Position numbers and translations under genes: made by a program
Assembly: GCA_018240785.1 (NCBI GenBank)
Contig: JAFEFC010000047.1
Coordinates: forward strand, 1 to 48,332
Source of the DNA: Pseudomonadota bacterium
GTDB lineage: Bacteria > Pseudomonadota > Gammaproteobacteria > Burkholderiales > Rhodocyclaceae
DNA length: 48,332 nt
Direction of reading: 5' to 3'
The notes under the pieces: generated by a model
Databases searched by the model: none
Told to the model about the DNA's origin: nothing
What the model saw: only the letters and a program-made list of their open reading frames with translations
Shown: piece after piece, positions 2,300 to 39,070 of the stretch
Layout of the letters: each line of letters starts with the position of its first letter
Numbering within the stretch: position 1 is the stretch's first letter

Positions 2300-2630
2300 G
2301 ACGAAGCCTCCTGCGTACGGTGCTGTGGGCGTAGAGATCAAGCTGTGGTGCTCGGCGGATGACCGGCCGCCGTGATCCCAAGCTGGATGCTTGCGAAACG
2401 ATCCAGCATAGTCATGACATCAAGATTTCGCCATGTCGTTTTTGGGCTGTCGAAAGGCTGTCCCTCTCCTACCTGCGGCCCAGTCCACCGCCACGCCGGA
2501 CAACAGGTTGCGACGCTCGGGCTGGGCCCTTTCACTTCGTGCGTCGACAGGATGACGCTCCATCTCCGTGGCACCGAGCCCATCGTGTGCGATGTTCGCT
2601 GTCGTCTCTTCGAAGTACGTCGCCAAACCG

Positions 2631-10664: not shown

Positions 10665-11052
10665 GATCGTGTCCCGGCGGCTGCCCGAAGAAAGCCTTCG
10701 ACGCGACGGGCGGCTGCTTTCCGGCGGGATGCTGGAAGGGTCGTATCGGCCACAAGCTGCTGGTCGTCCCATCCACGGAGTGCTCCGTCAAACGACGGCT
10801 CGATCCAGTTAGCCGACGCTCGCCGCCACCCCTTTATCGTGTCGTCGGCCAGAGCGGCAATTCCCGCTGTTCAGAGAACGGTAGTCTAGACTCCGAATCG
10901 TAGGTCCGCTGTATGCGTTCCGAGAGCGAACCCTTGACGTGAGACAGCACCTAAACGACACGACATGCCTATCCATCGGACTTGGAGTAATTCATTACAA
11001 GAGTCCGGGCTCCTGACGCTTTGGTTTCATACGTTTAATTCGCTCCCGATTT

Positions 11053-11169
11053 GGCGGAGAAAGCACGCGAACGCATTTTGGATGCCCTGGACAAGGAGAA
11101 ATGAAATGGCATGGGGGCCGAGCGGCAGGACATTCAGGTTGCTGTTCGTGCTCTGGGCAGTTCTCGGCG
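11053..11169 (+). repeat. Left copy of 117/121-bp direct repeat
   Basis: Nearly identical to 14692-14812 apart from 4 bases missing here (after ATGGCATGG). It contains the last codons of a CHASE2-TIR gene (EKARERILDALDKEK, stop) fused to the start and signal peptide of the FecR-TPR gene. Upstream of 11053 the similarity stops, so only the tail of a former upstream TIR gene survives. Confidence 0.93.
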
Positions 11170-13109: not shown

Positions 13110-14743
13110 GCGGGACTGAGCAAATCAGGCGATTTATTCCTGCCTGGGCGCGACATGCCATGGTTGGCACAGCGGGTTTTCTGCTGTTGCTTGGCCTGTT
13201 CCAGTGGGATGTGATGCACGAGCTCGATGCACGGCTCGCAACGCGGCTTCAGGCGGGCAACGCGGCCTTCAGCAAAGACATTGTGCTGGTGGATGTACCC
13301 AAGGGCGGGGGCATCCCGGAGTTTCGCGCGCGTCTAGGCGGGATGCTGCAGGGAATGACCACCCAGCCGGGCAATCTGCCGCGTACGGTGGGGCTGGACA
13401 TGTGGTTCGAGGCCGAAACACCCGGCCATGAGCGGGTGCTGGCCGGAATTACGGCCTTGCAGGATCAGAAAGTGCCGGTGATCGGCGCAGTGAACATTTA
13501 CAAGGAAAACAGAGACGGCTTGGATGCCGATTACGATAAACGTCACATCATGGCCGTTTATGGTCGAATGGACGGTGTAGGCCATAATGCCATCAATAAT
13601 CCGAGCAGTTCGGATGCTTGGGCTTTTTATGTGCCATGCCCTGGAGGGCAGTGGCCCATGGCAATGGCGGTATTGTTGGCCGGGCAGCAGGGCATGTGCG
13701 ACCGAGAGGACGGCGCCGAACGCCGTATACCCCTCGGCGAGCCCCTGCTGCAAAGCCCAACGCACCAGGTGCTGGGTTTTGATCAGGTCTGCCCCTTCGG
13801 CTGGCGCCAGTACGGTGGCGAGTGCCTGTCGTCGCAGCCCCAGTTGCGTAACCGGATCGTGGTCGTGGGGCGTTTTGCCGACGACCCAAGCCCCTATGCC
13901 GGCCGGCCCGGCCCCGAGATTATCGCCTGGGCAGTGAATGACCTGCTCGGATTGGGCGGACGGAGCATGCTGAATAATGCTGCGATGCATTTGTTGCTAG
14001 CGCTGCTGACGTCCGGGGTAGCCCTGCTGTTCTTCGTTGGCCTCTTGCGCTTCTTCCGTCGCTGGCGCCTGAATCCCTCGCGCATTGCGCTGGTGGCCGG
14101 CGGCGTGGCCTTGCTCTTGCCTGTGGGCTTGATCAGTCTGGCGCGCCTGCTGGGGCACGACTTCAGCCAGATCCTGCTGCCCGTGCTCACCCTATTGCTG
14201 ACACTGGCACTTGCAACGCATTACCAGGGCACGATCGCGCTCGGGGCAGAGCAGGCGCGCAAGGCGCTGCTCGACATGGATTTCGCCGCCTACGATGTAT
14301 TCGTGAGCTACCGGCATAGCCATCGTGACTGGGTCGAGGGGACACTCAAACCCATGCTCGAGGCGATACGGCGCGTCGACGGCCGCACACTGAGCCTGTT
14401 CTTTGATTCGGAGGGGATTTACTCTGGTAATAGCTGGGCAAACCGGCTTGGGCGTGTCATTCATGAGTCGCGGGTCTTTCTCGCCATACTGACGCCGGAT
14501 TACTTCGAGCCCAATGCCCAAGGGCGCAAGGTGTGCGAATGGGAGATGGAGCAAGCCTTGCAGCGGCATGCGGAGAACGCGATGACAATTCTGCCCGTGT
14601 TCCATGCCGGTTATGACCCCGAGCAGAATACGCCAAGCAAACTGCCGCATTTAAGGCCCATTCAGGGTTCGTCTAGCACGGCCCCGAACTGGGCGGAGAA
14701 AGCACGCGAACGCATTTTGGATGCCCTGGACAAGGAGAAATGA
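13106..14743 (+). CDS. CHASE2-sensor membrane protein with C-terminal TIR domain
   Basis: A 545-residue membrane protein. One N-terminal membrane helix (about 18-34) is followed by an extracytoplasmic CHASE2-type sensor (about 40-288; IVLVDVPK, RTVGLDMWFEAE, RIVVVGRFADD), three membrane helices (about 292-316, 327-349, 355-372) and a cytoplasmic TIR domain (396-545; YDVFVSYRHSHRDW, SLFFDSEGI, FLAILTPDYFEPN, VCEWEMEQAL). TIR domains of bacterial defence proteins are NADases or make cyclic ADP-ribose signals; the usual catalytic Glu would be in CEWEME (Glu478 or Glu480). The start is TTG, overlapping the FecR-TPR stop as TTGA, with GGAG 6 bases upstream. The pair looks like a transmembrane sensor-effector unit. 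CHASE2 proteins are more often kinases or cyclases, so the TIR output is unusual. Confidence 0.87.
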   Translation: MSGTEQIRRFIPAWARHAMVGTAGFLLLLGLFQWDVMHELDARLATRLQAGNAAFSKDIVLVDVPKGGGIPEFRARLGGMLQGMTTQPGNLPRTVGLDMWFEAETPGHERVLAGITALQDQKVPVIGAVNIYKENRDGLDADYDKRHIMAVYGRMDGVGHNAINNPSSSDAWAFYVPCPGGQWPMAMAVLLAGQQGMCDREDGAERRIPLGEPLLQSPTHQVLGFDQVCPFGWRQYGGECLSSQPQLRNRIVVVGRFADDPSPYAGRPGPEIIAWAVNDLLGLGGRSMLNNAAMHLLLALLTSGVALLFFVGLLRFFRRWRLNPSRIALVAGGVALLLPVGLISLARLLGHDFSQILLPVLTLLLTLALATHYQGTIALGAEQARKALLDMDFAAYDVFVSYRHSHRDWVEGTLKPMLEAIRRVDGRTLSLFFDSEGIYSGNSWANRLGRVIHESRVFLAILTPDYFEPNAQGRKVCEWEMEQALQRHAENAMTILPVFHAGYDPEQNTPSKLPHLRPIQGSSSTAPNWAEKARERILDALDKEK

Positions 14744-15743: not shown

Positions 15744-15908
15744 GCATAAACACGTGGGGTGGCGTGGCTGATCAAAGGGCGCCACCTGCCAGCAGACGGT
15801 CTGTGCATTCTGCATGAATCCCGGCACCCTTCAAGCGGGCCGCGACTCCTGCCTGGCAAACGGAATCCGCGCGGAATCACGCAATCCGCAGCGCGCCGTC
15901 CTTCGACC

Positions 15909-16184
15909 TCACGGATCACCCGGGCCGCATCGGCCTTCTCTGATGTTCAACGCCTTCGCGACCGGTCCTGCTCGGTATCGCCATGCCCTTGCGATCGGCG
16001 TGCGCCTTCCACCCCGTGGACGTCGGCCTGCCGTGCAACCTCGGCATGCCGCCCGGCCGCTTTCCGGGGGAAGCGGTGATGCAGACGACGGCCCGAGCGC
16101 TTTGATGTGGGCCCGCGTGGTGCTCTGCAGCGCTTCGTCGATCGGCTCGCCCGATCGCAGTTGCCGACGAGCCTGCTGGGTCAA
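15909..16184 (-). CDS. Possible small gene coupled to the traC-like gene
   Basis: A 91-residue open frame starts with TTG overlapping the stop of the 2821-residue gene as TTGA ([20 protein letters not shown]). The first 30 residues look natural; the rest is Arg/Gly/Pro-rich and may be a frameshifted or decayed tail. The same TTGA coupling is used by the TIR gene. It may be the last gene of the Tra1 operon or merely chance. Confidence 0.3.
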   Translation of the reverse strand: MTQQARRQLRSGEPIDEALQSTTRAHIKALGPSSASPLPPESGRAACRGCTAGRRPRGGRRTPIARAWRYRAGPVAKALNIREGRCGPGDP

Positions 16185-19100
16185 GCGATCCGCGCCACAC
16201 GCCTGGGCTGCAGCGGCGCGTGGATGTTGTGCTCCTTCTCCGGTTCCGGTGTGTGCTCGCGCTTCACTTCGGCCTCGTGGATCACGTGGCTGACTTCAGC
16301 CTTCACCTGACGTTCAACGCCTTCCCGCCCAAGCACGCTGCGTGTCGCCAGGTCATTGAAATCGGTGTGCGCCTTCATGTGCTCGAGGGCCGCCATCTGC
16401 AGGTCGCTGAGCAGAGCGCCTTTCAGCTCCGCCACCTGTTGGTCGGTGAGCTTCACGCCCTCAGACGCCCCTTCAGACGCCTTCTGCACGTCCTCCAGCG
16501 CTTTGGTGGCGCGAAGGTGCGCCCGGTAGCGCTGCGGCGTGATAGGGGGCAGCTCGGCGGGATAGGCATTCTCGCCCGGCGCGAAAATCGGCAGCAGCAC
16601 CTTGCCCCCCACGGCCTGTGCCGCTTCCTGGGCTTTCACCCGACCGGCATTGGTGCCCTGCGTGAGCTCCAGTTGCCGGTCGTCGTCCCCCAGGATGAGG
16701 ACCGGCTTGTCGGGAAACGTCTCGTGCAACGCCCGGGCGACCGCAGCCAGGTTCCCCGAGTCGAAGGCGGCGACCGTCGCAAAGCCCAGCACCTCGGCGT
16801 TGGTGGCCGCCGTCGCGTACCCTTCGGAGATGACGAGCGCCGGGGCCCGGGCGAGTGCCTCCAGCCCACCGACCGGATGAAAGCACCCGTCCTTGCGGCT
16901 GTCCTTCGCAAAACGCTTGGTGCCATCTTCCTGGATGTACTGCATCGTCCACTGCTTGCCATGCACATCGAAGGCGGGGATGCAGGTGGTCTTCCCCCCC
17001 TTGTCGGTGAAGACCCCGGCGTGGACCTGGATTCCCTTGTTCCGGATATACGGGGTCGGCGCCACGACCGGCAGCAGATCGGCCAGCTGCTTCACCACGC
17101 GCTGCGCGGCCGCTTCGTGCACGCGGTCCTGCTCGCGGGCGCGGGCGGCGAGCTTGCCCGCCGCCTCGGCCGCCCACCGTGCCTTCTCCTGGGCGTCGAG
17201 GACGTAGCCTTTCGACTTCCAGGTCATCGCGACCCCGGTGCGGTTGTTCTTGATGTAGCCGGCCGGGTGGCCGTCCAGGTGCGCGACATAGAACCCCGCC
17301 TGCTCACCCTTCCTGTCGCCCTCGACGCCGATCCGGTGCGTCCTGCCGTCCATGATCGGGTGATCGCCGCTCAGCTCGCACCCCACCGAGCGCAGCGCGT
17401 CCGCGAACTCGTCGCGCGGGCTCATCGCCGGCGCCTGCTGTGCCGGCACGTTGTCGGGCAACCAGCGCTGCAGCCGCTCCATGTCGGCCTTCGGGCCCGC
17501 ATACCAGGAGCGGGCGGCCTTGTCCCACGCGGCGCCGGCGGCCTTCGCGGCGGCCCGCTCACCGTAGGGCACGGCGAGGTAGATGCGCTCCGGGCCGGCC
17601 TGGTGGCCAGCTTGGGGGCCCTGGCGGGTGTCTGCGGCCGCTTGGGTCCACCGGGCAAAGGGCACCACATCGACCCCTGAGGGCACGTACCACGCCTGTT
17701 CCTGGCGGTCCCAGCGTGCCCCGAGCGCCTTGGCCTCGTCCTTTTCCTTATACGGAACCTGGAGGTAGGTCCGCCCGTCCCGCGCAGGGCGATCGGCCGC
17801 CAGCGGCTGCCGCGCGTCCTGCCCGGCGTTGTGTTCTTGCCAATCCGACGCGACAAGCGTCGCATCCAGCGCCGCCGCCTTGCGCGCCTCTTCGGCCGCC
17901 CGGATGTCCTCGTCCGTGCGGTTCGGATCGCGCCGGATGCGATCCTCGTGCGCACGCGCCAGGATGGCTGCCCGCTCCTGCTCGTCGTCGCTCGAATGAG
18001 CGGCGATCACGGTCAGCCGGAACGCCAGATGCTCGGCCTGCCGGGCGCTTCCGAAGTCCTGCACGAACGCGAGACGCCCATCCTCGCGCTGGGCGTAGAC
18101 GCTCCAGAGCCGGGGCGCCACCCCCAGATCAGCCGCGGCCACGACGTGGGTGGCACCATTGAACGCGACCTCGGCACTCGCCTGCACGACGACATGGCCG
18201 TTCCAGTCGTGCGGCAAGGCAATGTCGAAGGCGTCACGCGCCGCGCGATCGAACGCCGCGCGATCGCCGGCCCTGCGCGCCTCGCCCACCTTGGCTTCCT
18301 CGCGGAGCTGCTCGAGCGGCTCGATCGCCGCCCCGATCTTCGCGTCCAGGGCATCGGGATCCTGCGGCAACGCATGCCGTGTCCAGAACGCGTTCTGCGT
18401 GTTGAGCGGCTGCATCGCCTCGAGGATCTCGGCAACACGCTCGATCTGGGCGAAGTTCGCGGTCTCGAGCGCAGCGACGAGCGTGCCACGCTCGAGATGG
18501 CGCACGATCCAGGCCTCGGCGCCGGGCCGGGACACCGGTGTGTCGCCGGCCCGGGATGCGAGCAGGTCATCGGGGAGTATGGTGGGGGGCCGGACAGGGG
18601 AGGGCATCGTCGTCTCCTGTTCATGCGTCGGGAGATATTGCGCAACCAGATCGGGGTAGTGGGCGAGCACCGCCGGCGGCGGCAAGACTGGGGGGAACCC
18701 GATGCCGGCGGCGTCGGGCGTGTTCAGAAACAGGGCGTTATTGACCGCGCCACGATGCACGTCGGCCACCGCCGCCTTGGCGCTGGGCGCATCCGAAAAC
18801 GCGGCGTAGCGTACGCCCAGCGTCACGCTCCACCGTCGGCCGTGATCGATCAGTTGTTCAATCGTGGCCTCGGCGGCGAACTCGTCGGGAGTCATTTCAT
18901 GGGGCGGGCGTTGATCGGCCTGCGGCTGTGGCACGCCCTGTTCGAGCACCTGCTGCTGCTCGAAGGCCAGCACATAGTCCTTGATCTTCTCGGCCTCGGC
19001 CGCCGCCCGGAAGATCTCCAGCGGATCGTCGCGCAGCGCCTTGATCCACGAACCGACGTAGGCAGCGTGCTGCCCAGGATCGTGCCCGATGCCCAGCTCG

Positions 19101-22100
19101 TCGCCGAGGATCATGGATGCGATTTCCGCACGCAGCTCTTCCTTGGCATACCCTTCGCTTCCAAACGGATTGAGGATGTCGCGATTCAGGCGGGACGCAT
19201 GTCCAGTCCAGTGGCCCAGCTCGTGTAGTGCGATGGCGTAATAGCTCGAAGCACTCGGAAACTGTCCCTTGTCCGGCAGCTGGATGGTGTCAGTCGCTGG
19301 CTGGTAATAGGCTCGGTCCTGACGGCCGTGCGCGATCTCCGCGCCGGAGCCTCGCAGGATGCGTTCTGCCCGCTCAACCGGATTCCAGGTCCTGGGCGGC
19401 CGTTCGAGTGGCGGCAGGCCGTCGATCTGTTCTGCGTTGAAGACCGTGGCGAAGAACACCCGCGGCCGTTCCAAACGAACGGTCACCGTCTGCACGCGAC
19501 CCTCCGCGTCGCGGGCCGGCACCCCGTTTTCATCGCGCTTCGGTTGCTCTTCCTCAAACTTCCAGAATTGGATGGGCGTGCCTTTTTCACCCTTCCGAAC
19601 CTGAGCGCCGACCGCCGCGGCCTGCTTGTAAGTCATCCACCGCTGATCCGTGCGACCCTGCGCGAGCAGGTACACGGAGTTGATCCCACGGTAGCGCTTG
19701 CCGGTGGTGGGATTCATCGGGTAGTAGGAACCGGGAGGCGCAGCGTTCCAGGGCCTCTGCCAGGGAGCGGCGCCTTGTCTCAACTGTTCAATGAGCTTGT
19801 CGGCCACTTGCTCGGCATAAGATCGTTTCTCGGCCACAGTTTCCCCCTTGACTGAAGGTTCCGGTGAAGCGGGCGCCACGGGGCGTGGCGCTCCGCCTGG
19901 GAAGGGTTGCGCATCCAGCGCACCCGCTGCCGGGAGCCCCACGGCGTTGGCGGTGTCGTCTGGCGACGCGCCGCGCTGCGGGGTGTCGTGGAGATCGATG
20001 ACGGGCTTGGAGGCGGTGATGCGCTCGAAGGCCTGGAGGCCATTCGAGCCCGCGGGGAGAAACACCCGCTCGGCCCATTGGATCCGTTCGATAAAGGCGC
20101 CCTGGGTCGTGAGAAGACGTTGCTCCGCTGTGGTGATGTGGCCTTTCGCCTTGATCTCGATGCGGTCCTCTTTGTTGACGCGGGAAAGGGAGATTTCCCA
20201 GCCATTGGCCAGGATTGCGCGACGGCCGGCGCGGATCGCACTGACCACGTCGGCGCTCGACATCTGGGCAATCGGGGAGTCGAGGCCAAGGTTGCGCAGG
20301 GTCTGCCTGGCGGATTCGCGTCCCATACGCCGGCCGAGTAGCTGCTCGCCGTCGTCGGTTTGGAGTCGGTAGATCGTCGAGGAGCCCTCGACCCGGTCCC
20401 ATATCGGCAGGATGATGCCCACCAGCATGCGCTCCGTGGTGGTCCGCACCTTCGGGGCGGCAGCGAGCTGCGCATTCCACAGGCCCTGCGCTTCCGATTC
20501 GTCCACCTGACGCGTCAGGGTCACCCTTTGCATGGCGCCGCCAACGCGGCGATGCTCCCAGCCGCGGTGAATCACGTCAGCGTTGTCGATGTAGCGGTGG
20601 TGGTGCTTCTCGATCCCGTACATGACGCCCCGGCGGAGCGGGTTGCCCTCAGAATCCAGGCGGTCCCCGAGGTCGGCGAGGAAAAACACCTGCCCTTGGG
20701 TCTTGCCGTACTCCGCGACGTACCAGCCTCCCAGGTCGCCGCCCCTGCGGTTGCTTCGGGCAATGGCTGAAATCTCATCCCACGCCAGGTAGGCGATCGG
20801 ATTCGAGACATCCAGCTCCACGTAGCGGGTCTTCGCCCCTGTTCGGGCATCTTCGTAAGCGACGACGTCGCGGGACTTGCGGATACTCTGCGCCCGGAAC
20901 GTCTGGAGGCCTGCGTCAAACAGGCCCTTTTGCTTGGCATAGTCGACGGCTTCCACGAGGCGGCTTTCAAAGGCCTCGAAAACCGCGTTCTGCTGGTCCG
21001 TTTTGAGAGACAGCAGTCGGTTCAGAAACTGCGGGATGTCGGGGATCTTGCTTTCGCTGAACGCGCCGTTCTCGTCGACGAGGCTGAGCCCCATCTCCCG
21101 CGCGACCTTATGGAAGTCCAGCCCGGTGGTGTTTCGGTGAAGGTCGGTGAAGAAGTTCGCCAACGCCACCTTGGCGTATTCGCTTTCCAGGTTGTCGGCG
21201 GCGGTGAACATGCCCTGGCCGGTGGCCTGGCGCTGGCCGCGCGTCAGGGCGCCGAGTTGATCCAGGCGCCGGGCGATGGAGGAGACGAACCGCTTTTGCG
21301 CCTTGAGGTTGGTGGTCGGAAGAACGTAGTGCGGCTCAACGGCCTGGTTGGTCCGGTGGGTGCGTCCGAACCCCTGGACGGCCGCCGCGGCCTGCCACCC
21401 GGGCTGCAGGATGTAGTGGATCCGCCTGCGGGTGTTCTCGGCCGTGTTGTCGGCATGAAAGCTGTAGCCAGTCCCGCCGGCGCCGGAGAACACGAGGATG
21501 CGCTTCTTGTCCCGCTGGAAGAGGTCGGCATCCGTGCGCGAGGCATGTCGGCCGCGCTTCTCTTCTTCGACCGTGAGATTGCCCTCGGCGTCTCGGGTCT
21601 GGATGAAGCGGCGGTGGCGGCCGGTCACCTCGGCAACCTGGTCGGCACCGAAGGCGTTGACGATCGAATCGAGCGGGTTTTCCGGGACGCGGATGTGTTG
21701 AAGAGTGGAAAGCAACGCCTCCCGCATTGCGAGGGCTTGCCGGTCGAACACCGGCTTGCCCTCGGAATCCTTCACCGGCACATAGACCTTGTTACCGTTC
21801 TCGTCCGAAGACTCCTCGAAGGCCTCGACGGGAAAGCCGTTGCGGACGTAGTCCATCAACATCTGTCGGGGCGTGAAATCCAGCTCCTCCAGTGCCATGT
21901 CGTTCGCGGTCGCGTCGGCGATGATGCGTTCCTGGGCGGCCTCGTTGGTATTGACGAGCTGGATCACGGCGGCATGGCCGGCCTCGAGCTGATCGCGCAT
22001 GTGATCGATGACGGCGGGTGTCTGCATCGCCGTGACGATCTGATTGAAGAACCGCTGGTGCGCGCCCCAGAACTGCGCCATGGCCGCGCTCTTCGCACTG

Positions 22101-24646
22101 CCGTTGTTGCCGGCCTGAGTGATCTCCAGGGCCTGGTTGACGTTGTTGAGGACGACTTGCCACGCCCCTGCCAGTTCGTTGTAGATGTCCTCCTGCAGCG
22201 CCGTCAGGGTGTGCTCCAGACGCTCGTAGGTCACGCCGTCGAAGGACAAGGACCGGGCGATATACATGCCCAGGCCCTTCATGTCGCGGCTGATCAGCTC
22301 CATGGCGGCGATGCCTCCGGCGGAGACATTGCTGATGAAGGCGCTGACGTCTGCAAACGGCGTCCCTTCGCCCCACAAGCCCAGGCGATCGGCGTAGCTC
22401 AGATTGCTGACCTCGGTCGCGCCCGTGGCCGAGACATAGACCACCCGAGCGTCGGGCAGCTCGCGTTGGAGGTTGATGCCGGCAATGGCCTGCTGAGAAG
22501 GCTTGCGCGTACCGCGCTTGCCCTTGATGGCAACCGCATTGCCCATGCTGTGGGCCTCGTCGAAGGCAATCACGCCGTCGAAGTCCGGTCCCAGCCACGC
22601 TACGATCTGCTGCAGGCGGGTTTTCCCGCGCTGCTGCGCGGCGTCGGTTGCTTGCCGCCTCTCGCCGCCCCGCAGCGTCGAGTAGGTGGTGAAGAGGATG
22701 CCCTCGTTCTGGACGATGTCGTTGCCGGCCTTGGTCTTTCCCTGGAAGAAGAGGCGGTCGGGGTCGCCACCAATACTGGCAAAGTCGCGCTGGGCATCGA
22801 CGATCAACCCTTCATTGAAGGACACCCAGACGGCCTTCCGGCGGCCTTGCATCATGTTGTCCATGATGATTCCGGAGATCTCGCGCCCCTTTCCCACGCC
22901 GGTTCCGTCGCCGATGAAAAACCCCTTGCGGGAGCCGTTGGGGAGCACGTCGGAATGCGCCTGGCCGGCATAGACGATGGCTTCGAGCTGGGCCAGGGAA
23001 AGCTGCCCTTGGCGGATGAGTCGGTCAGGCAGGACAGGCGAGTAGGTCGGGAGCGGGGGCTCGACGGCCGCCATAGCGGCCGACTGGACCAGCTTACCCG
23101 GGTGGGGGTGGGCGTCCGGGATGGTCAGGCGCTGGGGTGCGTAGGTGGCGAAAACCGAATCCGTGAACTCCGCGGCTGCGCCCTCAGCGGCGCTTACCGT
23201 GACGCGGGTGGCGTCCTCGCCGTCAGCGAGGCGACCAGTTCCTCCAGTATCGTCGCCGCCGCTTCTTCGATCGTTGGCGGCAATATGATCTCGAAGCTCA
23301 CCCCCGGCTCCGACTCCGTCATCAGAGACATCGCCAGGTCCGGATCTGCCTGGAGCTTGGCGATCAGCAGCAGTGGTTCCGGTAGGGTCGGAATCTCGAT
23401 CTGGCCCCGTTCGATGGCGCTCCGGACCAGGACCAAGGCGGCCAGTTCGTCGTTCGGGGCGAAGGGGATCCGAGAGTCCTTGAGGATCGCGGCGGCCTGC
23501 TGGTTCAACGACGTGAGGTTGTGGAACGCGTATCGGTTGGCGGTCATTTCGGATGGACTCCAGGAGGGCGGGCAGTTCCGCAATGACATTGACGCGGCCG
23601 GTCATGACCGGCTGCGTGGTCGGCCCCGTCTTGTCGATGACGATGAGCTGGTTGTCGAAGGTCGTGCCGTACTTCGCATACTCACGACCGTCGATACCGA
23701 CGTTAGCCCGCACCGAGTATTGGTTCGCGATGTCTCGCCACCAGGCGGAGAACGCGGGCCGCTCCGCGGCCATCCCGTTTCCAGCGACGGCGACCAGGCG
23801 CCCACCCTCGGCCAGACGCTTCAGGGCCTGCTCGATGTGGCGGGCGCCATTGGAGGTGGCACGCTGACCTTGCACGCGGCCAGCTGTGGAGGAAAACGGC
23901 GGATTCATCACGACGACGGTCGGGACGATGCCTGCGGGCAAGAGGTTGTCGAGTTGCTCGGCGTTCTCGCGGTAAAGCGTTGCGTCGGGAAAGATCTGTG
24001 CGAGCAAGGTATGCCGTCGCGGCGACAGCTCGTTCAGAACAAGATCGGCGCCGGCGATGCGCGACCAGACGGCCAAGTCACCGGTCCCCGCCGACGGCTC
24101 CAGAACCCGGTCTGCGGCCGTCACATTCGCAACCCAATTGGCGAGAAATGCGACGACCGGTGGGGTGCTGAACTGCTGAAACTCGTCCATCTCCGGATCG
24201 CGCCGGGTCTGGGCCGGGAGCCGCTGCATGCGCGCGGCCAGTTCCATGACTTTACGCGTCGCCCAGTCCGCGCCCTGTCCCGACCATGCTGCGGTCTCGG
24301 TCGCCATCAGGTGCAGGTTGAAGGCGGCCTCCATGGCATCGTAGGCGTCCTTGGACAGATACGTTCCAGCGGCCTGCGTGCCCCCGAAAGCCTCGTTGGC
24401 GGCCTCGAACAGGAAACCACTGGTGATCTCACCGTCCGCGGCAAGCTTGGCGGCGAGGCGCGCGGCCAGCAGATGGCGCGCTACGTCAGGCAGGCGCGTC
24501 GCGGGCTCCTCCTGCGCGGCAGGAGAGGGCGGGGGGCCCGGCGATAACGCCTGATCAGGCAGCGCGGGCGTCACGGGCTGCGGGGCCACGAGCCAATCAT
24601 CGAAGAGATTGAATTGGGAAGGGGTGGACGGCGGGCGTTTTTTCAT
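16181..24646 (-). CDS. Giant methylase-helicase-ArdC-primase fusion at the traC position
   Basis: 2821 residues. Domains in order: an N-6 DNA methylase (EPSAGTGDL near 184, NPPF near 249); a P/R/G-rich linker (about 355-490); a Strawberry-notch-type helicase like phage P1 DarB ([12 protein letters not shown] near 580, FDEAH near 695, [30 protein letters not shown] near 1095); an ArdC ssDNA-binding domain (APWQRPWN near 1630) with its zincin HELGHWTGH near 1807; two DUF5710-like modules ([18 protein letters not shown] near 2292; [18 protein letters not shown] near 2355); and a C-terminal TOPRIM primase region with EGYATA near 2607, the motif of RP4 TraC. RP4 order places traC here. RP4 TraC and the related ArdC are reported to enter the recipient with the DNA, and DarB is injected with P1 DNA. 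Inference: a transferred protein that primes and shields incoming DNA. It overlaps the previous gene by ATGA. Confidence 0.9.
23194..23547 (-). CDS. Nested alternative-frame ORF inside the traC-like linker
   Basis: In another frame within the linker of the giant gene, a 117-residue frame starts at ATG 23547 ([17 protein letters not shown]) with GGAG 10 bases upstream. Its sequence is far more protein-like than the frame it overlaps: [20 protein letters not shown] and [17 protein letters not shown], with balanced Leu, Ile and Glu. The main frame here is Pro/Arg/Gly/Asp-rich. Either a small gene is nested as traH is in traI, or the main frame was shifted in by compensating indels. I recognise no family. 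Confidence 0.45.
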   Translation of the reverse strand: MTANRYAFHNLTSLNQQAAAILKDSRIPFAPNDELAALVLVRSAIERGQIEIPTLPEPLLLIAKLQADPDLAMSLMTESEPGVSFEIILPPTIEEAAATILEELVASLTARTPPASR

Positions 24647-24897
24647 GGACGTCGTCCCTTACCGTCCTCCCGATTGGCTGGCGTCGCGGCGCCCGGTAGA
24701 TCAACGCTGCTTTCGCGCGCATCCTCTTCGCTTAAGGCGTCCTCGGGAAACGCACCAGCCCGCTCGGCCTCCTCGGGGCTGAACTCCACTTCATAGCCGG
24801 GGCATGTCGCGTCGACCAGTTTTTCGTGGACCGTATCCTCTGCGCTCGTCGGTTCGGCTTGGATCGGGTCTTCGTCATAGTTCTCGGGCATGGTCAC
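24643..24897 (-). CDS. Small acidic protein at the traD position
   Basis: An 84-residue, strongly acidic protein ([40 protein letters not shown]) with no recognised motif. It overlaps the genes on both sides by ATGA, so it belongs to the same transcript. In RP4 the small gene traD stands between traE and traC; I use that only as a positional comparison because sequence similarity cannot be judged. It may act as a chaperone or DNA mimic for its large neighbour, which is conjecture. Confidence 0.65.
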
Positions 24898-25661
24898 TGC
24901 TCCTCGCTCGTTTCACGAACGCCGCTGTCGCCCGGGCGTCCTTTCAGTTTCGGCTTCTTGGGCTCGTGCTTGTATTCAGCGCCAAGGCGGCGCTCGGAAT
25001 CGATGCCTGCCTGATCTTCCTGCCCCCGCCAGAAAGCGAGGAAGGTGTCGCCGGCATGCGGGCGCTCGGCCCGGAGGGTGTGATTCGGCACGGACTTGCG
25101 CTGCGCGCGCAGGGTGTAAGCCCGACGGAGGTTCATCCCGATGATCCGGTCGGCCCGCTGCCGCGCCCGCGCGGCATCGCCCCAGCCGAAACAGGTGCCG
25201 TTGTCCTTGAGGGCGGCCAGGCCACGCTTCACAGAAACGGCGTCCTGCGCGGACACCCGAGCGCGCCGCGCAGGCTTGTTGCTGCAAAAGTGCTCGAGGA
25301 CCTCATCGACCAGCAATCGGCCCTCGCGGTCGGGGTCGCCGGCATTGACGATCTCGCTGGCCTCCTCGAGCAGCTTGCCGATCATGGCGAGCTGCTTCCT
25401 GGCATCCTCCTTCAGCTGGAGAATCCAGTCAGCCGGGATGATGGGCAGCCCATCGACGCGCCAGACCTTCTTGCCGCTGTCGTGGCGGGGCACGTCGTCA
25501 AGGGTGTCGTCGTCGGGCTCGGTCTCTTCGAGCATGTGACCGAAGCACCAAGTCACCGTATCAGTGCCGCACGGGAGGAAGTCGTCGCCCGTTCCGGTCT
25601 GGCCCCGCTCGCCTGCAATGGCCTTTGCGACGGATGGTTTTTCAGCGATGAACAATCGCAT
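24894..25661 (-). CDS. Truncated topoisomerase III (TraE-like) TOPRIM domain
   Basis: 255 residues, against about 650-730 for TraE/TopB. The N-terminal TOPRIM domain is intact: [33 protein letters not shown] (Glu and DxD metal sites), and [16 protein letters not shown]. After that the usual GRVQTP region and the catalytic Tyr domain are absent. The remaining tail ([17 protein letters not shown]) resembles a later part of the TraE sequence, so an internal deletion followed by truncation is likely. It cannot be an active topoisomerase, but the TOPRIM core may still be made. It sits where RP4 has traE, 14 bases after traF, and overlaps the next gene by ATGA. Confidence 0.85.
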
Positions 25662-25675
25662 GGTTCTTGCCTCCC

Positions 25676-26308
25676 TTACCAGGTGATGAGCGGGGAAACG
25701 ACGGTCTGAATCTGCGAACGATGGAGGGGGCCGAAGTAGCGGCCATCGAACGATGTGCCACTCACGTCGGACATGAGCAGCAGTTCGGCGGCGCCGAGGG
25801 TGTAGCGGTCGGCCTGGAACCTCGGCAGCGGGCGCCCCCCGGCATCGACGGCCCTGGGGGCACTCAGGGGTAGCAACACACCATTGACGCGCACGCCCTC
25901 GTCGGATACGGCAACGTCATCATCTTGAGCGGCCAGAACGCGCTTCATCATGTAGCCGTAGCCGCCCGGGCAGAAGCCGGCGCCGATGTAGCCGCGCGCG
26001 CGCGCTTCGTGAAAGACCTGGGCCTGCGGCGGGCAGAACAGGACATAGGTGCCTTTCTCCACCGCCGCGCTGCTCGCCCAGTACAGACCGACCGGAATGC
26101 TTCGGGTGGTGTTGATGCGCGCGCCGGCTGCAAAGGCCAGCGCCGCACCGACCATGCCGGCAGCGCCCGCCAGCGCCACCGCTGCGGTGATCCTCTCGAA
26201 GCGACGATTCATGCGCCGATCCTCGGCCGGCCGACGACACCGTGACGGCGCGGGTCGCTCGGGGCGCCGCGCGCTCGCCATTCGCGCCAGGATCAGCCGC
26301 GTGCTCAT
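25676..26308 (-). CDS. traF: Conjugal transfer peptidase TraF (S26)
   Basis: 210 residues from ATG 26308, which overlaps the traG stop as ATGA. TraF of RP4 is a signal-peptidase-like enzyme that cleaves and cyclises the pilin TrbC in the inner membrane. A membrane helix (about 41-62) is followed by the S26 motif TTRSIPVG with nucleophile Ser70 and MMKRVLA with the general base Lys122, then GTSFDGRYFGP. All elements are intact. The frame is open further upstream, but that is coding sequence of traG in another frame. Its pilin substrate gene is not in this window. Confidence 0.92.
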   Translation of the reverse strand: MSTRLILARMASARRPERPAPSRCRRPAEDRRMNRRFERITAAVALAGAAGMVGAALAFAAGARINTTRSIPVGLYWASSAAVEKGTYVLFCPPQAQVFHEARARGYIGAGFCPGGYGYMMKRVLAAQDDDVAVSDEGVRVNGVLLPLSAPRAVDAGGRPLPRFQADRYTLGAAELLLMSDVSGTSFDGRYFGPLHRSQIQTVVSPLITW

Positions 26309-28209
26309 ATCGTGATCTCCTCCCCTGCTTCCGCGAACTGGATGAGGCGATCGCTGACCGCGGGCGCCTGCACCGCAGCCCGGGCGCGGAACACCGGATC
26401 CTTGAAGTAGAGCGGCTGCTTGCCGTAGATCGCCGGAAACCCCGCCACATACACGACCATGTCGCCCGCCGCCTCGATGTGGCCATCGGCGCCCTTGCGC
26501 GGACCGGGCATGCGCAGGCACTCGTCCGGCGTCAGCAGCGGGCGCTGCACCTCCTGGAAGGTGCGCGACACCTGGCCGAGCATCGCCGCGGTGCGCCGCC
26601 CGCTGGTGGTGACCTGCGACTTGACCACGGTGGTCTGCCCGGTGAGCCGCGAGAGGTGCTCGGCCGTCTCGAGGCGATTGGGCGGATAGGCGTTCTGGAC
26701 ATGGCAGTTGGAGGTGATCGTCTCGTCCGGCCCGTAGCCGGTCTCCCGGCTCTTCAACTGGTTGAGGTCCTGGCAGATCAGGTAACACTTGATGCCGTAA
26801 CCCGCCACGAAGGCGAGCGCCTCCTGCAGGATCGGCAGCCGGCCGAGGGCGGCGAACTCGTCGAGCATCAGCAGCAGCCGGTGCTTGTAATGGGCCACCG
26901 GCCGGCCGTTCTCGAACGCCATCCGGTCGGCCAGGCGGCGCACCACCATGCTCACCAGGATGCGTACCAGCGGGCGCAGCCGATCCTTGTCGTTGGGTTG
27001 GGTGACGATGTAGAGCGTCACCGGATCGTCCGCGTGCATCAGATCGCGGATGCGGAACTCAGAGCGGCTGACGTTGCGCGCCACGACCGGATCGCGGTAC
27101 AGGGCGAGGTAGGACTTCGCCGTCGACAGCACCGAGCCGGCTTCCTCTTCCGGGCGATCCATCATGTCGCGTGCCGCGGAGGCGATCGCCGGGTGAGGCT
27201 GGCCGTCGAGGTGCCCGGTGGTGGCCATCTCCATCCACAGCTCGCCGACGTCGCGGTTCGGATCGGCCAGCATCGCATCGACCGCCGGCAGCGTCGCCGG
27301 GACCCCATCGGCCTTTGCCTTGTAGAGCGCGTGCAGGATGACGCCCACCAGTAGCGCGAAGGCGGTTTTCTGCCAATGCGATTCGAGCCCCTTGCCGTTC
27401 GGATCGACGATCAGCGTCACCAGATTCTGGACGTCGCCCACCGCGTCTTCGGTCTCCAGCCGGATCTCGTCGAGCGGATTCCAGCACACGCTGCCGCTGG
27501 CCGTGGCCGGCTCGAAGCGCAGCACGGTGTTGCGGGCATGCGCCTTGCGCCAGCCGGCGGTGAGTGCCCACAGCTCGCCCTTCAAATCGGTGACCACCGC
27601 GCTCGCGCCCCAGGACAGCAGCGTCGGCACCACGAGACCCACGCCCTTGCCCGAGCGGGTGGGCGCATAGGTCAGCACATGCTCGGGCCCGTCGTGCCGC
27701 AGGTAATGAAACCGGCCTCGCGCATCCTCCCAGCCCCCGACATAGACGCCCGCCGAGCGGCGAGCCACCGCTCCGGTGAGAACGTCCCCCAGGGTGCGCG
27801 GACGGGGCAGCAGACCGGCGACCTCGATGTCCTTCTTCCCGGCCCAGCGCGCCGAGCCGTGCAGGGTGGCGTTCGCCCGCGACGAGTTGGACGACACGAC
27901 TTTCGCCACCGCGACCCCGAAGAGCCCCAATGCCGACACCATCATGCCGACACTGGCCGCCTGCAGGAGCTCGTCCGGATAACGGGCCGACCAGTTCGAG
28001 GCCCACTCGAGGATCGCCCACGGCGCATAGACATGGTGCAGATGTTCGCCCAACTGCGCCGGGTAGCCGAAGCGGTGAGCGAAGAACTGCGTGGCCGACT
28101 GCAGGCCGCCCGCGAGCGACAGCGCGGCGAGCGCGGGCAACAGCCTGCCGCCAGGCGCACACCCGGCGCGCACCTGTGGACCGGCCGCGTTATTCACCTC
28201 GATCTTCAT
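26305..28209 (-). CDS. traG: Type IV coupling protein TraG (VirD4)
   Basis: 634 residues, the usual length. The protein is an inner-membrane ATPase that links the relaxosome to the secretion channel. Membrane segments lie at about 25-45 and 80-105; Walker A is APTRSGKG near 183 and Walker B is LLLMLDEFAALG near 448. The gene overlaps both traI (ATGA) and traF (ATGA). No mating-pair genes (trb) are seen, so the channel must come from elsewhere. Confidence 0.95.
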   Translation of the reverse strand: MKIEVNNAAGPQVRAGCAPGGRLLPALAALSLAGGLQSATQFFAHRFGYPAQLGEHLHHVYAPWAILEWASNWSARYPDELLQAASVGMMVSALGLFGVAVAKVVSSNSSRANATLHGSARWAGKKDIEVAGLLPRPRTLGDVLTGAVARRSAGVYVGGWEDARGRFHYLRHDGPEHVLTYAPTRSGKGVGLVVPTLLSWGASAVVTDLKGELWALTAGWRKAHARNTVLRFEPATASGSVCWNPLDEIRLETEDAVGDVQNLVTLIVDPNGKGLESHWQKTAFALLVGVILHALYKAKADGVPATLPAVDAMLADPNRDVGELWMEMATTGHLDGQPHPAIASAARDMMDRPEEEAGSVLSTAKSYLALYRDPVVARNVSRSEFRIRDLMHADDPVTLYIVTQPNDKDRLRPLVRILVSMVVRRLADRMAFENGRPVAHYKHRLLLMLDEFAALGRLPILQEALAFVAGYGIKCYLICQDLNQLKSRETGYGPDETITSNCHVQNAYPPNRLETAEHLSRLTGQTTVVKSQVTTSGRRTAAMLGQVSRTFQEVQRPLLTPDECLRMPGPRKGADGHIEAAGDMVVYVAGFPAIYGKQPLYFKDPVFRARAAVQAPAVSDRLIQFAEAGEEITI

Positions 28210-30506
28210 CGACTGTGTCCTCCCGAACGCTGGATCGTGCCGTGCCGCGTCACGCTCACCGCATCGCCCCGCGAAACGCGGGACAGGCGCCTCGCCGTGG
28301 CCGCGTCGACCGGCAGGACCAACACGACGTGCGCGCCCCCTTCCGCACCCGCCGCCGCATCGCCCGGCCTGAGGAGCGCCAGCGGCTGACCGTCGACGGT
28401 ACGCAGACCGGCAAATAAAATGACACCAGCACGTCCATCATAGAGCGCGTATTTCGGTATATCAATTCCTTTCTGTCGCTTTTCCTCGCGCTCGGCGATG
28501 TAGCGCACGGCTGCTGCGCGCTGCGCCGGCGTCATCCCGCCTGCGCGCCGTCCGCCAGCCCCGGCAGCGCCCCGTCGCAGTGGGTGATCTGGTGCGGCTC
28601 CGAGCTGCTCCAGGTGACGAGGAACATCACGCGGCAGTAACACTTCACCTCCGCGGGCGAAGCGAACCACACCGAGTTCGGACAGGTCTCGCAGACGGTG
28701 CCGGGATGCGGGCGGCGGGACGCCTCCAGCGCGGCCAGGGTGGGGCTTTCCGGCGGCACGGGGGGACGCGTCCCCAGCGGCTCTGGTGCGGTCCTGATCC
28801 GGTCGGTCACCGGATCGCTTGCCGTATCGATGAGCTCGGGCCCCAGCACCGCCAGGGCGGCCTCGATCAGCGCGTCCTCGCTCGGGGTGTTCAGTGGATT
28901 CATGAGCCGTCTCCTGGGTGAAGAGCCGTTGCCGCCGCCCTTCCAGGGCGGGGTCGGCGAAGGTGAGGGGAAACCGGGCGTCCACCGCCGCCCGGATGAC
29001 CAGCGCCTTGAATTCGGGCGTACCGCAGACGGTGATCTCGCGGCCATAGCGCGCCATCGCCAGGCCCAGCGCGACCTTGACGCCCTCGCGCGTGAGCGCG
29101 CGGGACACCTGCAGGCGGTCCCCGTCGTCCCGCACCGCCGAGGCGCCGGCGCGGAAGATGATCGTGCCCTTCTTGGTGACGGTGTCCTGCACGGGCGCCG
29201 GGCCCGGCCGCAACGGATCCACATTCGCGCCCGCTCCCGTCCCCGCGCCCGCCAGGGTGTTGCCCGTGAGCCCCTGCGCGGCCTCGCGGGCGCGCAGCGC
29301 CGCGAGCGCCGCGGCGTTGCCCTGCAGCGCTTCGTGCTTGAGCCAGTCGGCCCACGTCCGCCGCCGGAAACTGTCGTAGAGCGCGGCCCGCTCCCGGGCG
29401 TAGGCCGTGTGGATCTGCGCGAGCCGCTCGCGCAGCGCGCGGCTCGCCTGCGCATACAGCAGCCTCTTGTCGATGCCCTTGCCGTCGGCCACCCTGATCG
29501 TCGCCCGCCACAGCCGGTTCGCCCGCCAGGCGTCGTCGACGGCGCGCAGCCTGCGCCGCCGGGCGCCCGCCAGCGCCTCGCTGCGCTGCGCCGATGAGCG
29601 CTGCTGCTCGGCCTGGTAACGCGCATGCAGCGCGGTGGTATCAATGCGCAGACGGACCGGCGACTTGCGGTAGTGCCGGTCATCGCGAACGACGGCAGGG
29701 GCGGGCGGCTCGTCGGACGCCCCCTTGGCGGGCCCCTCGGCCAGCGCCCCGAACGGCCCCAGCCGCGCCTCCAGCGCAGGTTTCGAGAGTCCGCGCGCGA
29801 GCGTGCTCGCTTTCACCCGCGTGCCGTCTTGCGATTCGACGATGAGCCCGTTCCCGCGCGGGCGCAGCACGAGTCCGTTGTCCGACAGGACCTGGTGCAG
29901 TTCGGCCCAGGAACGCGCACCCAGCAGATCCTCGAGGCACACCCGCCGCACCCAGCCGACGAGCGACTCGACGCCGGCGTGGCGCTCCATGTCGGCTGCG
30001 CGCCCCTCGGCCACCGAGCGCAGCGGGACATGGTTGTCCGCCTGCAGGCCGTACTCGCGCTCGAGCGTCACACACAGATCCGCGAGCGTGCGGTACGACT
30101 GGAACGGCTCGTGCAGCGTGCGCCGTTCCGGGTGGATCTTGTTGATGGCGATGTGAAGGTGCACGTTGTCGGTGTCGTGATGTACCGCGCTCACGCGCTG
30201 GTGCCCCCCGAAACCCAGCCCGGCAGCGAGCCGCGCTTCGATCGCCTGCAGCGTCGCCGCGTCCGGTGCCTCGCCCGGCCGAAAGCTCACCAGCAGGTGA
30301 AATGTCTTGTCGCCCGCCGCGCGGGTGTTCTGCCGCTGGGTGGCCAGCACCTCGCCGAGCACCGCCGGCAGCGTCGCGGCCGCGCAGTTCGTCACGCGGA
30401 TCTCCCCGAGCCGCTCGGTCTTGTCCTGGGCGTCGGTGATGTACTCGACCAGCTCGGCGAAGTTGCTCCTGGCGAGCGTGCGCATCGGCACGTGCTTGGC
30501 GATCAC
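28206..30506 (-). CDS. traI: Relaxase TraI (MobP/IncP type)
   Basis: 766 residues, RP4 TraI-like. The relaxase nicks oriT and stays bound to the 5' end. It begins MIAKHVPMRTLARSNFAELV with nucleophile Tyr22, and the metal motif is VSAVHHDTDNVHLHIAINKI. The start is GTG at 30506 with GAAGG 7 bases upstream. The C-terminal part contains a Pro/Arg-rich stretch (about 525-655), which overlaps traH in another frame, and ends with YIAEREEKRQKGIDIPKY, typical of the RP4 TraI tail. It probably acts with TraJ, TraH and TraK at the oriT just beyond traJ. A KorB operator lies 18 bases upstream of its start. Confidence 0.94.
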   Translation of the reverse strand: MIAKHVPMRTLARSNFAELVEYITDAQDKTERLGEIRVTNCAAATLPAVLGEVLATQRQNTRAAGDKTFHLLVSFRPGEAPDAATLQAIEARLAAGLGFGGHQRVSAVHHDTDNVHLHIAINKIHPERRTLHEPFQSYRTLADLCVTLEREYGLQADNHVPLRSVAEGRAADMERHAGVESLVGWVRRVCLEDLLGARSWAELHQVLSDNGLVLRPRGNGLIVESQDGTRVKASTLARGLSKPALEARLGPFGALAEGPAKGASDEPPAPAVVRDDRHYRKSPVRLRIDTTALHARYQAEQQRSSAQRSEALAGARRRRLRAVDDAWRANRLWRATIRVADGKGIDKRLLYAQASRALRERLAQIHTAYARERAALYDSFRRRTWADWLKHEALQGNAAALAALRAREAAQGLTGNTLAGAGTGAGANVDPLRPGPAPVQDTVTKKGTIIFRAGASAVRDDGDRLQVSRALTREGVKVALGLAMARYGREITVCGTPEFKALVIRAAVDARFPLTFADPALEGRRQRLFTQETAHESTEHPERGRADRGRPGGAGARAHRYGKRSGDRPDQDRTRAAGDASPRAAGKPHPGRAGGVPPPASRHRLRDLSELGVVRFARGGEVLLPRDVPRHLEQLGAAPDHPLRRGAAGAGGRRAGGMTPAQRAAAVRYIAEREEKRQKGIDIPKYALYDGRAGVILFAGLRTVDGQPLALLRPGDAAAGAEGGAHVVLVLPVDAATARRLSRVSRGDAVSVTRHGTIQRSGGHSR
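28532..28903 (-). CDS. traH: TraH, nested in traI in another frame
   Basis: 123 residues from ATG 28903. RP4 carries traH inside the 3' part of traI in a different frame, encoding an acidic protein that stabilises the relaxosome; the arrangement here is the same. The N-terminus is acidic (MNPLNTPSEDALIEAALAVL), and the C-terminus has Cys-rich CETCPNSVWF and KCYCRVMFLVTW. Its stop TGA overlaps an ATG (28535) in the traI frame, so ribosomes leaving traH could restart and make the C-terminal 109 residues of TraI as a separate product. Confidence 0.85.
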   Translation of the reverse strand: MNPLNTPSEDALIEAALAVLGPELIDTASDPVTDRIRTAPEPLGTRPPVPPESPTLAALEASRRPHPGTVCETCPNSVWFASPAEVKCYCRVMFLVTWSSSEPHQITHCDGALPGLADGAQAG

Positions 30507-30523
30507 GGGCGCGCCTTCGTCTC

Positions 30524-30536
30524 TTTAGCCGCTAAA
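30524..30536. promoter_or_regulatory. KorB operator
   Basis: TTTAGCCGCTAAA exactly fits the IncP KorB operator (OB) consensus TTTAGCSGCTAAA. It overlaps the traJ stop codon and lies just upstream of the traI start. KorB is the ParB-like global repressor of IncP plasmids; no korB gene is in the window. Confidence 0.85.
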
Positions 30537-30971
30537 AGGCTCGCGCCCGGCCCGGGGCTGGACGACCTTCATCATCACTTCGCCCATCTGGTCCTGCGTC
30601 GCCTCGATGCGCGCGAGCACCGCGCGCAGCGTCGCCTCGCCGAACTGCGCGGTGCGCTCGTCGTTGGTGAGCCACAGCTTCAGGAGCCCCCCGAGCCGCC
30701 CCAGATCGCCATTGATCCGCGCGAGCTCGCGCACCTGCTCGTAATCGACCACCCCGCCGATGCGATAGCCCTGTCCGACCTCGCGCAGGAAACGGGCGAC
30801 GCTCATGCCCGCGCGCTGCGCCTGCGCTTCGATCAGCGCCTTCTCGCCGGGCGACACCGGCACGCGCAGGTGATGGGCGCGCCGGGCGGCACCTTGCGGG
30901 GCGGCGCCCGGCGCCGCGCTTGCCGCTTCGACCGCCGCCGGTCGGGCAGCGAGTTTCACCGTCCCATCCAT
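30525..30971 (-). CDS. traJ: Relaxosome protein TraJ (MobC-like)
   Basis: 148 residues from ATG 30971 (GAGG 7 bases upstream; a GTG at 30977 is also possible). TraJ of RP4 binds the oriT inverted repeat and recruits TraI. The protein has a ribbon-helix-helix-like centre (RVPVSPGEKALIEAQAQRAG, MSVARFLREVGQGY) and a helical C-terminus (NDERTAQFGEATLRAVLARI) of the MobC type. It is transcribed away from oriT, followed by traI. Confidence 0.88.
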   Translation of the reverse strand: MDGTVKLAARPAAVEAASAAPGAAPQGAARRAHHLRVPVSPGEKALIEAQAQRAGMSVARFLREVGQGYRIGGVVDYEQVRELARINGDLGRLGGLLKLWLTNDERTAQFGEATLRAVLARIEATQDQMGEVMMKVVQPRAGREPFSG

Positions 30972-31009
30972 CCTCACACCTCGCTGTGAATGCCGGCGGG
31001 AGCCGGCTG

Positions 31010-31130
31010 GGCCTCGCAGAGCAGGATCCCGTTGAGCGCCCCCGGCGCGAATAAGGCCAAAGCGAAGGGGGATGACCGGCTTGCCGGTTAGCCAACTTCG
31101 CCCATCCTGCCCGCCGTTCAGACCTCATGA
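31010..31130. other. IncP-type origin of transfer (oriT)
   Basis: The traJ-traK gap holds AACTTCGCCCATCCTGCCCG, which fits the RP4 nic region (ACTTCACCTATCCTG/CCCGG); the cut would be between 31109 and 31110. Just before it is an inverted repeat ACCGGC-TT-GCCGGT (31076-31089) placed as the TraJ-binding repeat, and GGATCCCGTTGAGC and GCGAATAAGG upstream also recall RP4 oriT. Divergent traJ and traK promoters are expected here; 31131-31365 shows nothing else. Confidence 0.88.
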
Positions 31131-31365
31131 CGCCAGAAGAAGAACGCATCGCGGAACCGCATTTATCCGCATTCCTGCGCTAACCTGCGACTGCATACTA
31201 GACGGATATAGCGAAATTACGCAAGCTCGTTCATAATCCCGTTGTCGTAGCGGCGGAATGCGCGGAAGTTGCGCCTTTTTGCGCTGTTATTGCAGGTCGC
31301 AGCGCACGGGAATGCGCGAGAAATGCGCGGCGATGCCGACAGGCAGCCCGGAAGGAGGGATCAGG

Positions 31366-39061: not shown

Positions 39062-39070
39062 GGCCACTAC

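Follow-up and report, generated by a model that had tools for sequence, protein, structure and literature searches.

A TraC-type primase preceded by a phage-type methylase and Strawberry-notch motor, and a probable overlapping gene, in a conjugative operon of a Rhodocyclaceae bacterium

Domain architecture of the fused TraC-position protein

The stretch analysed here (the window) is the 48,332-nucleotide contig JAFEFC010000047.1 of GenBank assembly GCA_018240785.1, from a bacterium of the Rhodocyclaceae. On its minus strand, in the traC slot of an IncP-type Tra1 conjugative transfer operon, lies a single open reading frame (ORF) of 2821 codons in which an adenine methylase, a Strawberry-notch ATPase, an ArdC-N domain, a zincin metallopeptidase, two DUF5710 modules and a TraC-type primase follow one another in that order. 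An earlier note on this DNA, made from the letters alone, had described such a fused protein without naming its strand; the ORF is continuous and holds each of the motifs cited there. Comparison with relatives points further to a second gene, overlapping the first in the +1 frame, and to internal starts in the main frame. The features concerned are as follows (residue numbers are those of the main frame).

16181..24646 (-), fused ORF of 2821 residues in the traC slot; ATG start, no internal stop
23522..24490 (-), helical N-terminal part and predicted adenine N6-methylase, residues 53-375 (AlphaFold model, Foldseek, motifs STP/EPSAGTG/NPPF)
23558..23561 (-), GGAG core of the overlapping gene's putative ribosome site; a weak site in the window, TTGGAGG/CTGGAGG in many relatives
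23194..23547 (-), probable overlapping gene in the +1 frame, ATG at 23547, 117 codons, TAA stop (profile matches, substitution rates in its own frame, bin control)
23159..23521 (-), main-frame linker, residues 376-496; predicted local distance difference test (pLDDT) below 50, fast-evolving in the main frame
22175..23107 (-), N lobe of the Strawberry-notch ATPase (AAA_34), residues 514-824 (Pfam)
20903..21679 (-), C lobe of the Strawberry-notch ATPase (Helicase_C_4), residues 990-1248 (Pfam)
19937..20899 (-), conserved post-motor region, residues 1250-1570 (alignment)
19843..19849 (-), AAGGGGG, putative ribosome site before the internal GTG
19835..19837 (-), internal in-frame GTG, residue 1604, where ordinary TraC1 starts; its ribosome site ranks first among 119 in-frame ATG/GTG codons
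19502..19819 (-), ArdC-N single-stranded DNA (ssDNA)-binding domain, residues 1610-1715 (Pfam; ArdC crystal structures)
18998..19375 (-), zincin metallopeptidase MPTase-PolyVal with HELGH, residues 1758-1883 (Pfam, motif)
18605..18607 (-), internal in-frame ATG, residue 2014, at a TraC2-like position with CAGGAG upstream; ranks 6 of 119
17447..17785 (-), two DUF5710 modules, about residues 2288-2400, limits by eye (Pfam stretch 2292-2334)
16580..17353 (-), TraC-type TOPRIM primase, residues 2432-2689 (PHROG match)

The Strawberry-notch, ArdC-N, zincin and DUF5710 regions that the earlier note had named were all recovered in Pfam, with E values of 3e-120 for AAA_34, 3e-85 for Helicase_C_4, 2e-47 for MPTase-PolyVal, 8e-39 for the two DUF5710 modules and 5e-33 for ArdcN. 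The motifs stand at residues 183 (EPSAGTG), 248 (NPPF), 579 (Walker A, GDGTGVGK), 696 (DEAH), 739 (SATG), 1808 (HELGH) and 2653 (primase DxD), and two VPY..AKA modules and the primase DFND (DaN-) motif were found by eye. The primase part has no Pfam match at an E value of 0.1, but it matches PHROG DNA primases (9e-41), falls within the alignment to annotated TraC primases and is 96% identical to the TraC of plasmid pTX1. The only PDB sequence matches at an E value of 0.01 are two ArdC entries (PDB identifiers 6SNA and 6I89; 7.6e-44), and both features of ArdC, the ssDNA-binding domain and the zincin, are present by sequence. The methylase is weak in Pfam (MTS, E value 0.03, below the cut-off); an AlphaFold model built from a 10-sequence alignment is mostly well folded over about residues 53-375, and a Foldseek search of the PDB with this model found M subunits of type I restriction-modification systems and M.TaqI. 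The model leaves residues 376-496 disordered, so that no recognition domain is seen directly behind the type-I-like methylase. The conserved post-motor region lies where Iyer et al. name a SnoC winged helix, and its fold was not confirmed by the predicted model, which is poor (pLDDT 47.6).

This class of architecture is already in print. Iyer et al. 2017 (PMC5512222), in the text sections available, define polyvalent proteins, list the methylase-helicase dyad, Strawberry-notch motor, ArdC-N, MPTase and toprim primase among their domains, name a Methylomonas Strawberry-notch example (WP_020485828.1) and propose methylation of injected DNA. The window protein has two features of the class, several disparate domains in one chain and type IV secretion system transfer genes as neighbours, and the role in DNA entry suggested earlier would be natural for such a protein. 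With the TraC proteins of IncP plasmids (R751 and pTX1; TraC1 and TraC2 of RP4) it shares the Tra1 traC slot, ArdC-N, MPTase, DUF5710, the primase with toprim acidic motifs and the positions of the putative internal starts described below, but it carries about 1600 extra N-terminal residues with the methylase and the motor. ArdC of R388/pSa has the same ssDNA-binding and zincin module and differs in being free-standing, without primase, methylase or motor; according to the available text of PMC7213743, ArdC of R388 binds ssDNA and is required in the recipient, its protease site is dispensable, and antirestriction by TraC1 had at that time not yet been investigated. The earlier comparison to P1 DarB stands in so far as a single chain, linked with DNA entry, holds an adenine methylase and behind it a superfamily 2 (SF2) ATPase, and fails for the motor, which is of the AAA_34/Helicase_C_4 type here whereas that of DarB is SNF2-related. 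No ArdC or primase family was found in a domain scan of P1 DarB, and LPD36, the N-terminal domain of DarB, was not among the matches of our general domain scans of the window and of P1 DarB, in which no search aimed at LPD36 was made. The notion that the protein unwinds DNA is not supported; Iyer et al. say, in the same sections of PMC5512222, that SWI2/SNF2 proteins translocate on the duplex without strand separation.

Fused, split and phage-borne relatives

When genome contigs were scanned, 26 loci were found (identified below, where needed, by L numbers), and in 14 of them the fusion lies in one ORF as far as the contig extends; the same holds for three of the four plasmid records that match the methylase-motor part at 60% identity or more. 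The fusion thus occurs in one ORF at 17 loci other than the window, 15 in Methylococcales (methanotrophs) and two (L013 and L031) in bins labelled deltaproteobacterial, and the possibility that the reading frame was an assembly fusion of separate genes falls away. TraG and TraF are encoded just upstream in 15 of these 17. Among the 18 fused genes, all retain HExxH and 17 the methylase and Walker A motifs, the remaining one (L029) being cut before them at its 5' end by the contig edge; L029 and L017 are missing from some of the counts below, and L036 is also cut. The methylase, motor and ArdC-zincin parts are under purifying selection wherever the synonymous rate (dS) could be estimated. Individual genes depart from the pattern: the frame of L004 is interrupted by a stop behind codon 135, L014 lacks the primase acidic motif, and the gene of the Nitrosomonas locus L017 ends at 1337 codons. 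The full-length query was covered by 80% or more in at least three plasmid records among the matches listed, and the methylase-motor part alone has matches in 667.

Split arrangements are found as well. The Chromatiaceae locus L018 has ArdC-MPTase as its own gene just upstream, and L006, also from Chromatiaceae, has ArdC-MPTase upstream; its methylase-motor part is spread over more than one frame, and IS66 follows a further copy of ArdC-MPTase. A genome of the same genus as the window also has a separate methylase-motor gene. Five genes of alphaproteobacterial plasmids share the methylase-motor core, with a toprim gene directly downstream in four (overlapping it by 1-4 bases in L066, L067 and L069, and 12 bases away in L068; no toprim neighbour is listed for L065), and they differ in being unfused and in having no match to the overlapping gene (0/5). 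The tree of the ArdC region is weakly resolved and does not settle the number of fusion events.

By sequence, the methylase-motor half groups with giant proteins of phages. An IMG/VR scan yielded 16 loci with giant or contig-cut ORFs that hold methylase and motor, in none of which ArdC or primase was found by tblastn; L042 has a DUF5710 match, but in a separate ORF. In a quick midpoint-rooted tree of the core (46 rows, each covering 80% of the core or more, without L029; Shimodaira-Hasegawa-like approximate likelihood ratio test, SH-aLRT, as sole support), all 21 conjugative rows fall together (SH-aLRT 100), with L041, L020 and L052 as their nearest neighbours, and a direction of transfer between the phage and conjugative branches would have to be inferred. 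The giant of L041 also contains MuF_C and LPD38. Ten ORFs flanking five of the viral loci were compared with PHROGs: four matched a named function, one matched unknown families and five matched nothing. The named matches are an integrase (L052), ParA (L041), a tail fibre (L043) and a tail spike (L053); integrases and ParA are not phage-specific.

A conserved +1 frame in the methylase-motor linker

The putative overlapping gene sits between methylase and motor, over the main-frame linker, and its ORF is conserved at 111-117 codons in the window and 25 further loci, together with its ribosome site, start and stop. Among 25 sequences (L052 left out), amino-acid identity in the +1 frame exceeds that in the main frame in 299 of 300 pairs, with means of 0.573 and 0.362, respectively. 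As a control, the same comparison over the whole gene (66 pairs of 12 sequences) favoured the +1 frame in 2 of 30 bins, both of which are the linker. In its own frame the nonsynonymous rate (dN) is below dS in 13/13 pairs, whereas in the main frame dN exceeds dS in 12 of the same pairs, the exception being L006-L035. For the linker, main-frame dN is above dS in six of seven pairs, at low dS, and about equal to it in L015-L014; in all other regions of the gene every finite dN/dS ratio is 0.31 or less.

An iterated profile of the small protein was searched against the six-frame translations of 73 loci (15,307 fragments). It had 44 matches at an E value of 0.001 or lower, phage giants included, and none at any other place in these loci. 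A script placed 42 of these in the linker in the +1 frame; of the other two, L041 lies there by coordinates and L035 lies between the methylase and motor pieces of a gene with a broken frame. Duplicates exist among the 44 matches and the 45 rows used for ribosome sites (L056=L043, L074=L052, and L050=L049 in this segment). Among the 53 loci with an open methylase-motor linker, 42 were matched. The profile did not match the P1 darB stretch. Ribosome-site energies reach -5 kcal/mol or lower in 42/45 loci, a count in which duplicates are included and the best of several nearby starts is taken, which favours the result; the values are weak at the first ATG of the +1 ORFs of L034 and L053.

Conservation of the +1 frame as protein is directly visible in these alignments, and we consider it very probable that the overlapping gene exists, a case that is comparative and does not come from the window alone. 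Antirestriction genes hidden in other genes have a precedent in ardD, which is nested antisense in tniA according to the available text of PMC3533173. The text sections of PMC5512222 mention no overlapping gene, and a word search of its main text found no internal start; no title on an overlapping gene in methylase-motor genes was met in the literature searched, mostly without subscription papers. Relative to these published descriptions, the overlapping gene and the internal starts were not found described.

Searches with the small protein gave little. Two members have no Pfam family, the best match of its profile to the PDB has an E value of 0.035, and two PHROGs families, each hit by one of 16 members with a best E value of 0.005, were taken as chance. 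It was found in 4 of 72,556 plasmid records, all four already among the loci, in none of 50,697 phage records and, among 398 genomes drawn from the phylum, in its own genome only. A general role as DNA mimic was considered and rejected: the protein is acidic (isoelectric point, pI, 4.1-4.8) in the window, 18 fused-type and four Chromatiaceae loci, and has a pI of 8.0 in L041 and L043. We infer that it is a partner or regulator of the methylase-motor part because it occurs in that one place.

Putative internal starts at the TraC1 and TraC2 positions

In 17 of the 18 fused genes an ATG or GTG lies 15-35 codons before the PWQ(R/K)PW motif, which is where unfused TraC proteins start. The TraC of pTX1 begins with MAE, and the window has GTG GCC GAG at this place. 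The ribosome site at the TraC1 position is the best in-frame site of its gene in 8/18 and among the top three in 14/18; compared with synonymous recoding, it is stronger than the mean in 17/17, the genes being related to one another. CAGGAG with the ATG of residue 2014 is placed as in pTX1 and as in R751, where the site at residue 703 of the frame read ranks first. TraC1 and TraC2 of RP4 are two gene entries in the available text of PMC7314908. These recurring ribosome sites are a matter of direct observation and, together with the overlapping gene, suggest several products where the earlier note had seen one protein; we think it quite likely that the stretch encodes more than one. In RP4, TraC1 and TraC2 share one frame.

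The Tra1 operon and a sister plasmid

The genes upstream of the fused ORF are the following.

24643..24897 (-), small ORF in the traD position, no family match (position)
24894..25661 (-), topB/traE reduced to its N-terminal part (NCBIfam match 1-182 of 669)
25676..26212 (-), traF, signal peptidase
26305..28209 (-), traG, coupling protein
28206..30506 (-), traI, relaxase of the TraI/MobA(P) family
30525..30977 (-), traJ
31010..31112 (-), traJ-II leader RNA (Rfam RF01760, 95.3 bits)

The order traJ-traI-traG-traF-(topB fragment)-traD-like is that of R751, which bears out the placement in the traC position proposed earlier. The topB gene is even shorter in the Nitrosomonas relative L017 (9336-9764) and is unannotated in the stretch of pTX1 examined. 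Just downstream of the fused gene, a remnant at 15901-16009 (-) has 73% identity to the 3' part of that gene. Genes for a mating channel, of the RP4 Tra2 type, lie outside the window: contig C28 from this genome encodes TrbB, TrbE, TrbF, TrbI, TrbJ and TrbL, the TrbI match being below the curated cut-off, and contig C2 has matches to a TrbE/VirB4-type protein and TrbB.

Over 9.7 kb, the C28 stretch and plasmid pTX1 of Thauera sp. K11 share 99.2% identity. The Tra1 region of the window aligns with pTX1 at 91% identity in 25669-33288 and at 92% in 16068-18521; the sole alignment between these two blocks is 18950-19720, at 76%, and pTX1 has an ordinary unfused TraC of 1268 residues at the same place. 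With flanks so similar and an unfused TraC between them in pTX1, the window element and pTX1 are, by sequence, close sister plasmids that differ by this block. Contigs C28 and C41 probably belong to one replicon. The differing block spans 18522-25668; one breakpoint falls within traC, near residue 2042, and the other immediately beyond traF. The two plasmids, one carrying the module and one lacking it, allow TraC to be compared naturally in both forms, alone and joined to methylase-motor.

Possible function and origin

Based on these similarities, we propose that the gene encodes a TraC primase with a phage-type methylase and Strawberry-notch motor in front and that it gives rise to several products, a reading to which we assign a probability of roughly two in three. 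Best supported within it is a TraC-linked DNA-entry protein whose methylase-motor half also occurs in phage giants, accompanied by a dedicated small protein. The products would be the whole chain of 2821 residues, a TraC1-like protein that starts at residue 1604, perhaps a TraC2-like protein that starts at residue 2014, and, read in the +1 frame, a separate protein some 117 residues long. The chain, or its TraC1 part, would enter the recipient via an RP4-type channel, where the ArdC part would coat the incoming single strand and the primase would start the second strand. The motor could then carry the methylase along the new duplex, such that adenines are methylated ahead of restriction, with the small overlapping protein as dedicated partner or regulator of the methylase-motor. 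Antirestriction by methylation seems to us an even bet, and transport of the full chain slightly less probable than that.

Several observations weigh against the proposal. A chain of 300 kDa would be a very large secretion substrate. L031 is without a start of the kind described at the TraC1 position, single-gene comparisons with synonymous recoding gave p values of 0.054-0.547, short of significance, and the start of R751 itself at the TraC1 position comes no higher than 11th among 67. For the overlapping gene, the ribosome site in the window is weak (-5.9), and with a GC content of 64% there its +1 frame would be open by chance with a probability of 0.49. Eleven of the 53 loci with an open linker have no profile match at an E value of 0.001, viz., the giants L034, L045, L075 and L076, the pieces L038 and L039 of one same-genus gene, and the five alphaproteobacterial genes; the four giants do have +1 ORFs in the linker, which are unmatched or weakly matched.

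The most serious alternative is that the methylase-motor half acts in the donor, marking DNA before transfer, or in gene control, and that export is confined to the TraC part translated from the internal start. A transferred strand would keep its donor methylation, and a ribosome site that recurs at the TraC1 start suits this view. We consider it unlikely, given that the close relatives include the phage giant with MuF_C and LPD38, of a class predicted to be injected, and that the fusion partner is a primase class described, in the available text, as transferred. The idea of a single-chain analogue of the P1 Dar system is plausible, but that one transported chain does everything and the internal starts and overlapping ORF are irrelevant is improbable: the unbroken ORF in 18 genes, with its motifs retained and its parts under purifying selection, speaks for such a chain, whereas the protein-level conservation of the overlapping frame and the ribosome sites at the TraC1 start speak against it. 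Far less credible is entry into the +1 ORF by a frameshift from the methylase, which would add a C-terminal domain and make no separate protein. The +1 ORF does start exactly where the methylase fold ends, and it would take the place of a disordered linker, but its ribosome site and start codon recur, and in 13/45 loci the +1 frame stays open for no more than one codon ahead of the chosen start, which argues against such an entry. That the ORF is a by-product of composition or a conserved RNA element, as the cheap open frames of this GC-rich segment and the weak ribosome site in the window might suggest, can be dismissed almost entirely, given that the chance of an open frame, which ranges from 0.0000 to 0.66 over 26 sequences, is below 0.02 in 10/26, in AT-richer relatives with homologous ORFs, that dN/dS in its own frame is below 1 in all 13 pairs, and that the bin control singles out the linker.

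Under the proposal of a TraC primase with several products, expression of the overlapping gene would mean that a deeply conserved component of DNA entry in phages and plasmids was missed by lying in a second frame, and that the fast-evolving disordered linker of the giants is its shadow; it would also give the DarB-like methylase-motor class a concrete partner. A bolder joint reading, which we put forward tentatively and with the odds against it, is that the phage and conjugative methylase/Strawberry-notch genes are two-protein machines in which the overlapping gene supplies a subunit that targets or restrains a methylase without its own recognition domain, and that the conjugative branch swallowed traC, yielding four nested products that mark, shield and prime incoming DNA. 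On this reading the ancestor may have had methylase, small gene and motor in that order, before the main frame came to run through the small gene.

Other genes in the window

The contig also carries CRISPR-Cas genes at 38351-48000 (+), with Pfam matches to Cas6, Csc2, a Cas3-like protein, Cas4 and Cas1; the set is type I-D-like by eye, with an unmatched ORF of 972 residues in the Cas10d position and a repeat array at 47635-48000 of six copies spaced at 64-66. A caspase-like peptidase joined to a GDSL-type domain lies at 458-2341 (-) and a HipA-type protein at 4405-5742 (-). At 10965-14743 (+), a FecR-TPR protein is followed by a CHASE2-TIR protein, the FecR and CHASE2 matches being below cut-offs.

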